Made by a program: the position numbers and the translations under genes. Positions 15,216-51,484 of a stretch of 64,000 bases of DNA are shown piece by piece. Under the pieces are notes generated by a model. It had not been told where the DNA came from. It made no database searches and was given only the letters and a program-made list of their open reading frames with translations. The stretch's first letter is position 1. Each line of letters begins with the position of its first letter. The stretch is from Synechococcus sp. 1G10 (GTDB lineage: Bacteria > Cyanobacteriota > Cyanobacteriia > PCC-6307 > Cyanobiaceae): positions 62,001-126,000 of the forward strand of contig NZ_NQKW01000005.1 of assembly GCF_002252625.1 (NCBI RefSeq), written 5' to 3'.

Positions 15216-16222
<1,007 letters not shown>

Positions 16223-16226
<4 letters not shown>

Positions 16227-17635
16227 AAGGATGGGGCCTCAGGGCCCAGGCGCTCACGGCAGAGCCTGAGCTGCTCGGCCACCCGCTCGAAGCCCGTGCC
16301 CCCCTCACTGCGGCGGGCGGCCACCACCTGCCGCGGCTCGATCTCGGCGTGGATGTCCGCCTCAAAGGCAGGATGAAGCTGGCGCCAGCGCTCCAGGGGC
16401 AGATCCCGCAGCAGCAGCCCCTCGCCCAGACAGGTTTTCACCAGACCGCCCACCAGTTGGTAAGCCTCGCGGAAAGGAACACCGCGGGCCACCAGGTAAT
16501 CAGCCACATCGGTGGCATTGGAGAAATCAGCCGCAACGGCCTGCTCCAACCGCTCGGGCCGGAAACGAATGCCCTCCTCAAGCAGGATCGCCATCGCCTC
16601 GAGGCAATCCGCAGTGGTTCGCACCACATCGAAAAGGGCTTCCTTGTCTTCCTGGAAATCCTTGTTGTAGGCCAGGGGAAGCCCCTTGATCATGGTCAGC
16701 AACCCCATCAGGTGCCCGAACACCCGGCCGGCCTTGCCGCGTACCAGCTCGGGCACATCGGGGTTCTTCTTCTGGGGCATCAGGCTGCTGCCGGTGGCAC
16801 AGCGGTCGGTGAGGCGCACGAAACCGAACTCCTCACTGGCCCAGAGGATCACCTCCTCCGAGAGACGGCTGAGATGGACCAGGATCAGGCTGGCGGCGGC
16901 ACTGAATTCCACGGCGAAGTCGCGGTCGCTGACCGCATCGAGGCTGTTGGCATAGATCGCCTCGAAGCCCAGTTCCTCGGCCGTGAGCCGTCGATCGATC
17001 GGCACCGGCGTGCCGGCCAGGGCCGCAGCACCCAGGGGTGAGATGTTCACCCGGCGGCGCACGTCCGAAAGGCGCTGGCGGTCGCGTTCGGCCATCTCCA
17101 CATAGGCCAGCAGATGGTGGGCCAGGGAGAGGGGCTGGGCGCGCTGCAGATGGGTGTAGCCGGGAATGAGGGTGTGCAGGTGGCTGTCGGCCTGGTCGAG
17201 CAGGGCCTGCTGGAAGCGCCGCAGGCCGGCATCGAGTCCATCGATCGCCTGGCGCAGCCAGAGGCGCAGATCGGTGCCGACCTGATCGTTGCGGCTGCGG
17301 CCGGTATGCAGTTTCTTGCCCAGGGGGCCGATCAGGGCGATCAGGCGGTGCTCCACGGCGAAGTGCACGTCTTCGTCCTCCAGCCCAGGGCGGAAGTGGC
17401 CCTCGGCCGCTTCCGAGCGCACGGTCTCAAGGGCAGCGATGAGCTCCTCCGCCTCAGCAGTGCTGATCACCCCGCAGCGGCCGAGCATGCGGGCGTGGGC
17501 GATGGAGGCATCAAGGTCCTGCTGCAGCAGGGTGATGTCGAAACCGATCGAGGCATTGAAGCGCTCGATGGCCGGATGGAGCCCTTCCTCGAAACGGTCA
17601 CTCCATCGCGCCGGTTGGGAAGCCTGTGCCGCCAT
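16223..17635 (-). CDS. argH: Argininosuccinate lyase ArgH
   Basis: ArgH splits argininosuccinate into arginine and fumarate, the last step of arginine synthesis; argG lies 33 kb away in this window. The 470-residue protein has the fumarase/aspartase superfamily signature [12 protein letters not shown], the TGRSRNDQV segment that binds substrate, and the [11 protein letters not shown] motif with the catalytic His. ATG at 17635 leads into the conserved WSDRFEEG start. The C-terminal stop overlaps dusA by 4 bp. Confidence 0.96.
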
Positions 17636-32179: not shown

Positions 32180-33322
32180 TCAGCTGCGGATCTGAACGGG
32201 CATCACCAGGTAGGTGAAGGTCGGATCCTGCACAGAGGTCAGCACCGCCGGGGTCGTGGGGGCGTTGCAGCGCAGCTCGACCCGCTCGGATGTCATCGCC
32301 TTGAGCCCATCGAGGATGTAGCGGACATTGAAGGCGATCTCGATCGGATCACCGCTGATCACCGCTGGCAGGTCTTCGGAGCCGCTGCCCACATCCTGGG
32401 CATCGGCACTGATGTGAAGCTGACCGCTGCCGGGATCACTGCTGAGCTTGACGACATTGTTGTGTTGGTCGGCGAGAACAGCCACCCGCTCGAGGGCCTG
32501 CACGAACCCACGGCGATCAAGCTCCAGGGTCCGGGTGAAGCGATCGGGGATCAGCTGGCGGTAGTTGGGATAGGTGCCATCGAGACTGCGGCTGGTGAGC
32601 ACCTGGTCGGCCCAGAGGAACACCACCTGGCCGCGATCGCAGTAGAGGCTCACCGGATCGTCACTGCTGCAGGCGGAGAGCAGTCGCTCAAGTTCCCTCA
32701 GGGAGCGGGCTGGCACCGTGACCGCGAAGGGCTCACTGCCATCCTCCGCGCCGGAGAAGGCCTTCTCGAGGCGGAGCACCGAAAGGCGATGCCCATCGGT
32801 GGCGGCGCATTCGAGATCCTGATCCGCCAGGCCGAGGTGGACGCCGGTGAGCAACTGCTTGGCCTCATCACCGCTGCTGGCAAAAAGGGTGGCCCGCAAA
32901 CCCTTCACCAGCGCCTCCGGTTGAAGGCGCAGCGGAGTTCCGCTCTGAACAAGGGGCAGATCGGGAAAGTCCTCGGCAGAGAGACCGCGCATCTGGTAGC
33001 TGCCGGAGCGACTTGTGAGCTCCACCTGCTCCTGACCTTCTTCGCAGCTCAGGCTGATCGGGCTGTCGCTGGAGAGGCGCGCCACGATCTCGCCGAACAG
33101 GCGTGAAGGCAGGGTGATGGTGCCGCTGCTCTCCACGGAAGCGGGAAGGCTGGTCTGGATGCCAAGGCTGAGATCAAAGCCGGTCAAGCTGAGCCGGCCA
33201 GTGCCGGCATCGGCGGTGAGCAGCACATTCGCCAGCACCGGGTGGGTGGGGCGTGAAGCCACGGCACGGCTGACCAGCTGAAGGCTGGCGCTCAGTTCCG
33301 CCTGAGAGCAGACCAGCTTCAT
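32180..33322 (-). CDS. dnaN: DNA polymerase III beta sliding clamp DnaN
   Basis: DnaN is the ring clamp that tethers polymerase III to DNA. The 380-residue protein shows three repeated clamp domains, beginning KLVCSQAELSASLQLVSRAVASRPTHPVLANVLL. The later segments FPDLPLV, GTYPNYRQLIPDRF and IAFNVRYILDGL are typical, and the C-terminus ends YLVMPVQIR. ATG at 33322 gives the conserved MKLV start; the open frame beyond it is not clamp-like. It is transcribed away from the putative origin region at 33323-33826. Confidence 0.97.
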   Translation of the reverse strand: MKLVCSQAELSASLQLVSRAVASRPTHPVLANVLLTADAGTGRLSLTGFDLSLGIQTSLPASVESSGTITLPSRLFGEIVARLSSDSPISLSCEEGQEQVELTSRSGSYQMRGLSAEDFPDLPLVQSGTPLRLQPEALVKGLRATLFASSGDEAKQLLTGVHLGLADQDLECAATDGHRLSVLRLEKAFSGAEDGSEPFAVTVPARSLRELERLLSACSSDDPVSLYCDRGQVVFLWADQVLTSRSLDGTYPNYRQLIPDRFTRTLELDRRGFVQALERVAVLADQHNNVVKLSSDPGSGQLHISADAQDVGSGSEDLPAVISGDPIEIAFNVRYILDGLKAMTSERVELRCNAPTTPAVLTSVQDPTFTYLVMPVQIRS

Positions 33323-33502
33323 CGCGATACGACTCCAGAGGGAAACAGCCCGCCAAGGGCCACACCACGCTTCCACACCACTGCCGGAAGCGCAACGAGG
33401 TCCAGCTTGCTCGAACCGCTTTCCAACTGCCCTCTCCCCAATCCGGTTACTGGTTTTGTCTTGATGCAGAAGAAAACAAATCCAATCCGTAGTCGTAGGG
33501 GC

Positions 33503-33694
33503 TGGGGAAAAGGTGGAAAAGATCCATGGCCCAGTCACAGTCTCAGGTCTTACGAATCAGAACTGAGGAAAGAGCACCTGAATGTCGGCTGCAATCAAGG
33601 TTTTCCACTCTTTCCCGGATCTGGGGAAAACGTCGACATTTTCAGGGTGCTCGCTTTGCTCCTCTTTTCCCCGTGTTGAGGATCTTTTTCCCGT
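33503..33694. promoter_or_regulatory. Cluster of DnaA-box-like 9-mers
   Basis: Six 9-mers, three on each strand, each match TTTTCC at the first six positions and TTTTCCACA at six to eight of nine positions. Two are directly adjacent in tandem (33503-33520). Such clustering in under 200 bp, next to dnaN, is what a DnaA-binding origin would look like, though an exact TTTTCCACA copy is absent. Confidence 0.5.
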
Positions 33695-33764
33695 GGACGC
33701 TTTGACCAGTGCACCCGAGATCCGTTGTGATCCGCAAGCTCAGCCAGGCGCTCCACACAGTCCA

Positions 33765-33797
33765 AAGCCCCGCACCGGAGTCTCCGGTGCGGGGCTT
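33765..33797 (-). terminator. Strong hairpin downstream of thrC
   Basis: A perfect inverted repeat with a 12-bp GC-rich core stem (GCCCCGCACCGG paired with CCGGTGCGGGGC), extended by an A-T pair inside and two A-T pairs outside, with a 3-base loop. It lies 29 bp past the thrC stop. The trailing U-run on the thrC side is only UUU, so it may be a weak-tract terminator or an mRNA 3' stabiliser. Confidence 0.7.
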
Positions 33798-33826
33798 ACT
33801 GAGCTGTTGTGTTCAGATTTTCGCGT

Positions 33827-34885
33827 TCAGAAGCCCATCACCTTGGCGACCACATCCACCTCAGGTGCCAGGCCGGCATGGAAGGCCCCATCGCAGTTGT
33901 CGATGGCAGTGTTGGGATCCTTCAGACCGTTGCCAGTGAGCACGCAAACCACCGTGGCTCCGGCGGGCACCTGCTCCGCCTGCTGGAGCAGACCGGCCAC
34001 GGAGGCAGCGCTGGCCGGTTCGCAGAACACTCCTTCCTCCCGGCCGAGCAACTGGTAGGCCTCAAGAATCTCCTGGTCGGTGACAGCGTGGAAGGAGCCA
34101 CCGCTCTGTTCCCGCACGTTGAGGGCTTTCTCGCGGTTGGCAGGATTGCCGATCCGGATCGCGGTGGCGATGGTGTCGGGTTGCTCGACTGTGTGACCAA
34201 GCACCAGTGGCGCGGAGCCAGTGGCCTGGAAGCCCATCATCCGGGGGAGGCGTCGGCTGTGGCCTGCCTGCCGGTACTCCTGGAAGCCCATCCAGTAAGC
34301 ACTGATGTTGCCCGCGTTGCCCATGGGGATGCAGAGCCAGTCGGGGGCGTCACCGAGAGCGTCCACCACCTCGAAGGCGGCGGTCTTCTGCCCCTGCAGG
34401 CGGTAGGGGTTGAGGGAATTCACCAGCGTGACCGGGTAGGTGTCGGCCACTTCGCGCACGATCGCCAGGGCACGATCGAAGTTTCCCTTCACCGCAAGCA
34501 CTTCGGCGCCGTAAACCAGGGCCTGGGCGAGCTTGCCCTGGGCCACATAGCCGTCGGGGATCAGCACGAAGGCGCGCATGCCGCCGCGGCGGGCGTAGGC
34601 GGCAGCCGCGGCACTGGTGTTGCCGGTGCTGGCGCAGATCACCGCTTCGGCGCCGGCTTCCCGGGCCTTGCTCACCGCCATCGTCATCCCCCTGTCCTTG
34701 AAGCTGCCGGTGGGGTTGAGACCGTCGTATTTCAGGAACACCTTGATGCCACGGCCCAGCCGTGCCGCCACAGACGGCGCAGGGATCAAGGGAGTCGCGC
34801 CTTCCCTCAGGGTGATCACAGGGGTGGCCTCGCTCACCGGCAACCAGCGTCGGTAGGCCTCGATCAGCCCCGGCCAGTCCTGCAT
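33827..34885 (-). CDS. thrC: Threonine synthase ThrC
   Basis: ThrC is the PLP enzyme that converts O-phosphohomoserine to threonine. The 352-residue protein is of the short bacterial type. It has the PLP Lys in [11 protein letters not shown] (about residue 58), the [13 protein letters not shown] phosphate loop and the PMGNAGN substrate loop. I chose ATG at 34885 because [17 protein letters not shown] aligns with the N-terminus of short-type ThrC proteins such as that of B. subtilis. A GTG at 34930 would add 15 residues. It is the first gene on the far side of the putative origin from dnaN. Confidence 0.95.
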
Positions 34886-35004
34886 CGTTGGTTGCTGGCC
34901 CAGTCGCCGAAGAGCTGAAAGCAGGGGCACGTCGACCGGAGGACAGGCTGATATGAATCTACGCGCCCAGTTCCCAGCAGCTTCCTGCTACGAGCTCGGT
35001 TGGC

Positions 35005-50442: not shown

Positions 50443-50473
50443 GGAAAAACCGACAGCGGGACTCGGCGTTGAT

Positions 50474-50947
50474 TCAGGCGGGAGGCTGACCACGCCTTAG
50501 CCAGCGCTGCCGCAGGGCCCGCAACGGCTCGAAAGCATCCTGCTGACTTGCGCCTCGCGCTGGTCTGAGCTCGTGCTCAGGGACTGGTGGGGGAGGCGGT
50601 GGTGCCGGCGGCAACAGGCGCCTTGCCTGCTCCCTGAGGGCGTGATTGTCCTGGGCCAGCAGCTGCTGCTGATCGAGCAGGGGCTGCAGGCGCTGGTGAA
50701 ATTTACGCTCGAAGATCTGGGGCAGATCTCTTATCAGCTCCTCGAGATCGGCCAGTTGAAGTCTCGCCCGCTCCAGGTCCTGCTGGCAGGTCAACAGTTG
50801 AGCCTTGGTGGCCTCCAGCTCCAGAGTTGCCTCCCGCAGAGCGCTCCTGAGCCGATCCCCCGTGGGCTCAGAATCTGGCTCTGGACTCTGCAGGTCGGCC
50901 GGAATCTGCACTGGCGGGATTCCTGGCCTGGGGAGGTCATCAACCAT
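50474..50947 (-). CDS. Coiled-coil hypothetical protein
   Basis: This is a 157-residue protein that I do not recognise. The N-terminus is Pro-rich. Residues about 33-110 form a coiled coil (LRSALREATLELEATKAQLL to LQPLLDQQQLLAQDNHAL), and residues about 110-125 are a polyproline run. The C-terminus is basic (RQRWLRRGQ). No signal or transmembrane helix. It converges on argG and lies 68 bp downstream of the rpsF stop on the same strand. Confidence 0.7.
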   Translation of the reverse strand: MVDDLPRPGIPPVQIPADLQSPEPDSEPTGDRLRSALREATLELEATKAQLLTCQQDLERARLQLADLEELIRDLPQIFERKFHQRLQPLLDQQQLLAQDNHALREQARRLLPPAPPPPPPVPEHELRPARGASQQDAFEPLRALRQRWLRRGQPPA

Positions 50948-51015
50948 CAGTTGGCCAGGATTGATGGCGGATCCATCATCCCCAGGTTGGGCGGGATTCG
51001 TTGATTTCCGCTGGT

Positions 51016-51369
51016 TCAGCTTTCGGCTGTGACCGGTTCTGCGGCGGCAGGAGCGCTGCGGGGGGTGGGCAGCGGCCCGTCCTGCTTGACGGTGAGATAG
51101 CGGATCACGTCTTCGCTGAGGCGCATGGCGCGCTCAAGCAGGGCCACCTGCTGCCCGTCACCGTCGTGGTTGAGCTGCACGTAGATGCCTTCGCGGTGCT
51201 TGGCAATCGTGTAGGCCAGCCGACGTTTGCCGCGCATCTGGCAATCCAGCACTTCAGCGCCGGCTTCTGTGAGCAGATCGCGGTACTTGGCCACATGGGT
51301 TTCCACCTCTTCCTCCGGGATGTCCGGACGAAGGATGTACATGGTTTCGTAGTAAGGCTTCTGCGACAT
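51016..51369 (-). CDS. rpsF: 30S ribosomal protein S6
   Basis: S6 binds the 16S central domain with S18. The 117-residue protein has [12 protein letters not shown] at the N-terminus, the [28 protein letters not shown] core and DVIRYLTVK, followed by an Ala/Pro/Ser tail typical of cyanobacteria. ATG at 51369 gives the conserved start. A TAGGCT hexamer at 51438-51443 on the minus strand is a possible -10 element. Confidence 0.94.
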
Positions 51370-51484
51370 GGGGGCTGAGGCTCCGTGATGGGCTCTTGGG
51401 AGGCCGGCGGCAGAGCGCTGCCAGCAACGGATTGGCCAGCCTACCTGCCGGTCTCCTGCGGATTCCGCTCTGCCGCCCCTGCTG

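Follow-up and report, generated by a model that had tools for sequence, protein, structure and literature searches.

Cyanobacterial origins and the DnaA-trio module

Replication origins located beside dnaN and carrying TTTTCCACA boxes have been shown or predicted for many cyanobacteria, and in one compilation dnaN lies on one side of the origin in 55 of 68 cyanobacterial species (PMC3480399, PMC4674748). As described, oriC of Synechococcus elongatus PCC 7942, Cyanothece ATCC 51142, and Anabaena PCC 7120 contains a cluster of TTTTCCACA-like boxes; oriC lies beside dnaN in S. elongatus and Cyanothece, and dnaA is located away from the origin in S. elongatus (PMC3480399, PMC4674748). The locus described here resembles these origins in all three respects, and since an origin beside dnaN is standard in cyanobacteria, its location is ordinary. 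It differs in having six boxes versus 11 reported for S. elongatus, in the drift of its boxes to TTTTCCCCA and relatives with no exact TTTTCCACA, and in the presence of thrC on the other side. In DoriC 10.0, drift of the DnaA box from A/T to G/C was already reported for the origin of Cyanobium gracile PCC 6307, which is likewise GC-rich and picocyanobacterial; the passages of that report dealing with this origin concern the box alone and do not mention triplets (PMC6323995).

The second system for comparison is the DnaA-trio unwinding module (BUS), in which boxes and a short spacer are followed by DnaA-trios that run 3' to 5' along the opposite strand; the published search requires a spacer of no more than 16 bp and at least three consecutive NAN triplets (PMC8287927). 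BUS is predicted in most bacteria. A genome survey failed to detect DnaA-trios in 15% of its genomes, and in vitro tests of BUS activity have included the DnaA of S. elongatus (PMC8287927). Structural work on BUS in B. subtilis has reported a contact between Asn187 and the amino group of the adenine at the triplet center; a central cytosine is roughly equivalent to adenine in strand separation, and strains with cytosine at this place outperform those with guanine or thymine in growth and initiation (PMC10721633).

The region between dnaN and thrC is very probably the chromosome start site of a cyanobacterium, judging from its sequence. We infer DnaA binding, unwinding, and initiation, and we put at roughly 80% the probability that this is a Synechococcus/Cyanobium-type origin opened by DnaA through its boxes and altered trios.

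The dnaN-thrC intergenic region

The window, that is, the whole stretch of 64 kb that we analyzed, corresponds to bases 62001-126000 of contig C16 in a 3.34-Mb draft genome of 84 contigs. Positions 33323-33826 form a 504-bp intergenic region between the start of dnaN (33322) and the end of thrC (33827), both on the minus strand; we propose this region as oriC based on its box array and its conservation in relatives. The dnaN gene (32180-33322, minus strand) is predicted to encode the DNA polymerase III beta clamp, with a match to NCBIfam TIGR00663 from residue 1 (332.7 bits), and thrC (33827-34930, minus strand) is predicted to encode threonine synthase (NCBIfam TIGR00260, 329.8 bits). The dnaN frame is open further upstream, to a GTG at 33538; we preferred the ATG at 33322 because the family match begins there and because 79 of 80 relatives have an ATG at the same residue. 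The dnaN protein sequence is 100% identical to that of Synechococcus sp. Cruz-7E5, the nearest named dnaN, and 98% identical to that of WH 5701. In this draft genome, dnaA is on a contig other than that of dnaN.

A preliminary description of this DNA had placed the region beside dnaN, which the coordinates and the TIGR00663 match confirm, and had called it the only noncoding stretch longer than 300 bp in 64 kb. The latter statement also holds: a crude gene caller left two further long gaps in the window, and we checked both, finding that 15423-16222 falls within an ORF bearing a Dus domain and that 50443-51484 contains two ORFs, one for ribosomal S6 and one of 157 aa that has no match in Pfam. 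An Rfam search of the intergenic region matched no RNA element up to an E value of 0.1, and a consensus scan returned no sigma-70-like promoters and no intrinsic terminators. Downstream of thrC, there is a strong hairpin (33766-33796, minus strand) with a 15-bp GC-rich stem (z -5.5) that is terminator-like apart from lacking a T run.

DnaA-like boxes

The motif TTTTCC occurs 14 times in the window, and six of these sites lie within 33323-33826. As 9-mers they start at 33503, 33512, and 33622 on the minus strand and at 33601, 33665, and 33686 on the plus strand, in agreement with the earlier report of six DnaA-box-like sites, three per strand and two in tandem. Motif and alignment together identify the tandem pair (33503-33520), which consists of a proximal box TTTTCCCCA (33503-33511, minus strand) and a distal box TTTTCCACC (33512-33520, minus strand), each one mismatch from TTTTCCACA. 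The box TTTTCCACT (33601-33609, plus strand) is 21 bp from a second TTTTCCCCA (33622-33630, minus strand); many relatives retain this pair, and its minus-strand member is among the best conserved of the array. The remaining two boxes are TTTTCCCCG (33665-33673, plus strand), also recognized by motif and alignment, and TTTTCCCGT (33686-33694, plus strand), within a conserved block at 33684-33704. The alignment additionally shows a conserved CTTTCCTCAG (33563-33572, minus strand) that is possibly a weak DnaA box. The consensus TTTTCCACA is absent from the whole 64-kb window, as had been noted for the region, and four of the six TTTTCC sites differ from it by one mismatch; both exact copies of TTTTCCCCA in the window sit within the intergenic region.

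Box density in the region, a comparison proposed in the preliminary description, is far above that of the genome. In 5000 dinucleotide shuffles of the region, TTTTCC occurred on average 0.65 times (maximum 5), and no shuffle reached the observed six; for TTTTCCNC, the observed count was five against a shuffled mean of 0.18 and a maximum of 3. Genome-wide, TTTTCCNC occurs 180 times, which corresponds to 0.03 expected per 504 bp, and two of the 49 copies of TTTTCCNCA in the 3.34 Mb lie in the region.

Our alignment comprised the 480 bp preceding dnaN in the window and in 79 of 80 relatives retained from the search; L047 was dropped for its truncated dnaN start. Relative to dnaN, the boxes are at -372, -351, -308, -287, -198, and -189, in aligned blocks that are conserved with drift across the 80 rows. 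At the -308 box, the sixth position is C in all 80 rows and the ninth is A in 73. The exact tandem TTTTCCN3TTTTCC was present in 11 of 81 sequences; elsewhere one or both boxes are mismatched or hard to recognize, and the number of exact TTTTCC sites varies among relatives, with L078 having one. The earlier suggestion that this DnaA may prefer TTTTCCCCA is supported in part, in that C is the commonest seventh base at five of the six aligned box positions; a changed preference of the protein itself is at most a possibility. Weak ATP-DnaA boxes have also been characterized by a C at position 7 (PMC8235120).

A BUS-like triplet module

The preliminary description overlooked a candidate unwinding module next to the tandem boxes. 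Read in the direction of dnaN, the sequence runs TTTTCCACC, TTTTCCCCA, GCCC, CTACGACTACGG, and then ATTGGATTTGTTTTCTTCTG. Based on the alignment and the sequence, GCCC is a 4-bp G+C-rich spacer (33499-33502, minus strand) that separates the tandem boxes from four triplets (33487-33498, minus strand) reading CTA CGA CTA CGG, equivalent to 3'-GAT GCT GAT GCC-5' on the plus strand; we regard these aligned triplets as candidate altered DnaA-trios. A T-rich stretch (33467-33486, minus strand) follows in the alignment and is a candidate unwinding region.

This arrangement of boxes, spacer, triplets, and T-rich stretch is the geometry of BUS. It shares with B. subtilis BUS the tandem boxes, the short spacer, the in-phase triplets beginning with G, and the T-rich stretch, together with conserved DnaA pocket residues. 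One or two DnaA boxes are expected next to the triplets and two are present (33503-33520), and the 4-bp spacer is within the 16-bp limit (PMC8287927). Unlike in BUS, however, the central base alternates between A and C (A, C, A, C), so there is no run of three NAN triplets; we therefore refer to the module as a BUS-like variant rather than as a BUS member by the published rule.

In the mechanism that we propose, DnaA would bind the box array of the dnaN-thrC region and would be guided from the tandem pair across the 4-bp spacer onto the plus-strand triplets; by analogy with B. subtilis BUS, it would then open the T-rich stretch in the direction of dnaN. The triplets would descend from canonical DnaA-trios in which the central adenine has often been swapped for cytosine.

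We scanned 291 cyanobacterial genomes with the exact motif pattern, leaving the centers of triplets 2-4 free. The pattern occurred at 71 places in 66 genomes, including once in this genome, at the dnaN-thrC region; it was absent from 225 of the 291 genomes of the class, 28 of the 36 same-family genomes among them, and an exact pattern misses drifted copies. At 34 of the 71 places the sequence reads CTACTACTAC, and 33 of these are outside the family. Among 20 places picked by eye from the 71, 19 precede dnaN by 131-532 bp and share its strand, and the twentieth (G022) is about 0.5 kb after dnaA. Because 18 of these 20 genomes were chosen with CTACTACTAC in view, the 17 outgroup rows they provided are not an unbiased sample of triplets.

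A different reading of the same conserved sequence is that the region is an origin in which the triplets are not a DnaA-trio, with CTACGACTACGG serving as the site of another protein or as part of a regulatory element and unwinding taking place elsewhere in the region. That 74 of 80 aligned rows fail the rule of three NAN triplets agrees with such a reading, as does a second, unexplained conserved block close by, CGTTGCG-N-TGTGGAAGCGTGG (33365-33397, minus strand), which lies between the unwinding module and dnaN and shows a level of conservation similar to that of the boxes across the 80 aligned sequences. An exact pattern for this block matched in three of 291 class genomes, all of the same family, and a similar pattern occurs once in this genome. 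We nevertheless consider this reading unlikely, given that the triplets are homologous in position, spacing, and phase to an exact CTACTACTACTG in other cyanobacteria and in low-GC members of the family, that substitutions at their centers are nearly confined to A and C, and that their first base is G in 312 of 320 cases.

Bases at the triplet centers

Canonical trios (3'-GAT GAT GAT-5') are found in many other cyanobacteria and in low-GC family members. Across the 80 aligned rows, which are related to one another, 311 of the 320 triplets have A or C at their center and nine have another base. The center of triplet 1 is A in every row, whereas the 240 centers of triplets 2-4 comprise 153 C, 78 A, 7 T, and 2 G, and only six rows have a run of at least three NAN triplets. 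A motif-scoring search misplaced the motif in a few of 79 loci, and its column counts, among them some G or T centers and some non-T first centers, are noisier than those of the 80-row alignment.

We added 18 low-GC family loci, all new to the analysis and fetched without knowledge of their triplets; 17 have a convincing motif, of which 14 lack a central C and three have one. In all, 40 family loci were hand-picked from 61 genomes with a dnaN match, with the triplets of G143 and G150 already known and at least six repeating earlier loci (e.g., G330 and L005). Removing rows with identical upstream 150 bp reduced 118 family rows to 112; L225 and L228, without a convincing motif, were left out of the tree and of the GC3 comparison. 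The number of central C averaged 0.18 in the 17 rows with GC3 <0.4 and 1.83 in the 95 others, seven of which have none.

Over the 112 distinct family rows, central C follows GC3 (Spearman 0.63, not corrected for relatedness), and repeats are able to exchange sequence; the A/C pattern could thus reflect mutation bias or copying between triplets, with no binding rule behind it. The kinds of substitution make this improbable. Parsimony on a dnaN tree of 133 sequences assigned to the centers 22 T>G changes, 21.7 G>T changes, and 8.3 of all other kinds together. At the centers, T>G thus outnumbers T>C/A by 22 to 1.7, whereas 60 four-fold sites of dnaN on this tree show the reverse, with T>G (94) below both T>C (142) and T>A (169; together 311). 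The difference is significant (Fisher p=1e-11, counts rounded), and GC pressure alone would permit T>C equally. As the outgroup did not form a monophyletic group, we rooted the tree at its midpoint, which leaves the direction of change uncertain; the restriction to T and G is independent of the root.

We think it rather probable, as part of the preferred reading of the triplets as altered trios, that this GC-rich cyanobacterial lineage uses a mixed trio code of G followed by A or C, a repeated natural A-to-C swap that would widen the definition from NAN to N(A/C)N. A or C at the center fits the B. subtilis result that cytosine could replace the central adenine, and we propose that an unchanged DnaA pocket tolerates either base because both carry the amino group contacted by Asn187. 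The origin itself would be of the expected kind, and the variant triplets, which we infer to act like BUS, are the new part: we found no report of a natural mixed A/C trio in the literature searched. Mixed A/C triplets could account for part of the 15% of genomes in which trios were not detected (PMC8287927), could put the amino-group model of trio recognition to a separate test by evolution, and could improve origin prediction in picocyanobacteria.

DnaA protein

The residues Asn187, Ile190, Ile193, Arg202, and Glu228, which are reported to bind trios in B. subtilis (PMC10721633), are identical in the DnaA of this genome and in 37 other cyanobacterial DnaAs (38/38). These five residues were placed by counting from the FTN motif, not by alignment with B. 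subtilis DnaA, and we take the B. subtilis numbering (Asn187 and the others, and position 191) to apply to these proteins. L183, a partial DnaA, was left out of the comparison, and the genomes of L030 (canonical triplets) and L078 gave no DnaA match, perhaps owing to partial assemblies.

Gln occupies position 191, flanked by the two isoleucines of the ISM, in 14 of 15 DnaAs from GC-rich family members (the exception is G059) and in none of 12 low-GC family members or 11 outsiders; the 24 other DnaAs have Ala, Ser, Thr, Leu, or Val. Gln191 may be part of an adaptation to the mixed trio code. As a trio adaptation in its own right it was set aside: one change in one clade could suffice, and L029, G071, and G205 have Gln191 with few or no central C.

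The DnaA of this genome (L081) has the recognition helix GGKDHSTV, with Ser where all 11 outside-family DnaAs have Thr. The helix reads HST rather than HTT in 11 of the 15 GC-rich family DnaAs; however, an altered specificity for TTTTCCCCA could not be firmly linked to it because G143 and G150 combine HTT with TTTCCCCA boxes.

Nucleotide skew

We sampled a complete relative, G353 (2.75 Mb), in 20 stretches, each 20 kb long. Its GC, T/A, and keto skews (keto being G+T against A+C) all change sign from negative to positive in the interval 2,084-2,202 kb, which contains the dnaN intergenic region of G353 (2,128.5 kb). The return turn lies about half a chromosome from there, at 708-825 kb for T/A and keto skew and one stretch earlier (570-688 kb) for GC skew; at 1,789 kb, a single stretch shows the opposite sign for GC skew. 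An origin at dnaA (395 kb) was rejected for this relative, as the skews have no turn there.

On the 190-kb contig of the window itself, the left and right sides differ in keto (p=0.0005), GC (p=0.0016), and T/A skew (p=0.008), although these and the following skew p-values are only a guide because the stretches are neighbors. The cumulative keto minimum is at window position 34,073, inside thrC and 0.6 kb from the triplets, whereas the GC-only minimum is at 16,859, 17 kb away. In WH5701, the two sides of dnaN are distinguished by T/A skew (p=0.0006) but not by GC skew (p=0.32), and the same is true of G002 (p=0.0014 and p=0.90, respectively), in which the two stretches adjoining dnaN carry T/A skew of the wrong sign; in both, a turn is seen for T/A and keto only. 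The check by GC skew suggested in the preliminary description gave a turn at dnaN in the complete relative and a minimum elsewhere on the contig of the window, and the interpretation as an origin is supported by box density together with the turn in G353.

Some other cyanobacteria replicate independently of DnaA from multiple origins (PMC7198777), and the boxes might instead form a DnaA-regulated promoter or operator of dnaN, with replication of the chromosome beginning at another place, such as dnaA, or at several. The region probably also contains the dnaN promoter, though the sigma-70 consensus scan gave none, and both the location of dnaA on another contig and the GC-only minimum agree with this alternative. 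We consider it very unlikely, however, since in the complete relative it is at dnaN, rather than dnaA, that the skews turn, and since the keto minimum of the contig is nearby; in addition, V-shaped skew is described for most species of clades C-G (PMC7198777), one of which may hold this lineage.

Record starts are no guide to the origin in this family because they fall at either gene. The single-contig records G354, G045, G305, G278, G327, G320, G345, and G104 start at dnaA, hundreds of kb from the dnaN origin, and G059, G150, G321, G030, and G005 start ~170 bp before dnaN.

Boxes away from the proposed origin

Three direct DnaA-like boxes ~22 bp apart occur between a CbiX-like gene and a DUF2811 gene on another contig of this genome (G000:C59:29794-29845; L249:1495-1546). 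We rejected this cluster as a conserved datA-like site, as its exact pattern was found in one of 71 family genomes; it may serve to titrate DnaA or be a promoter under DnaA control. The cluster is present in WH5701 (L250) too.
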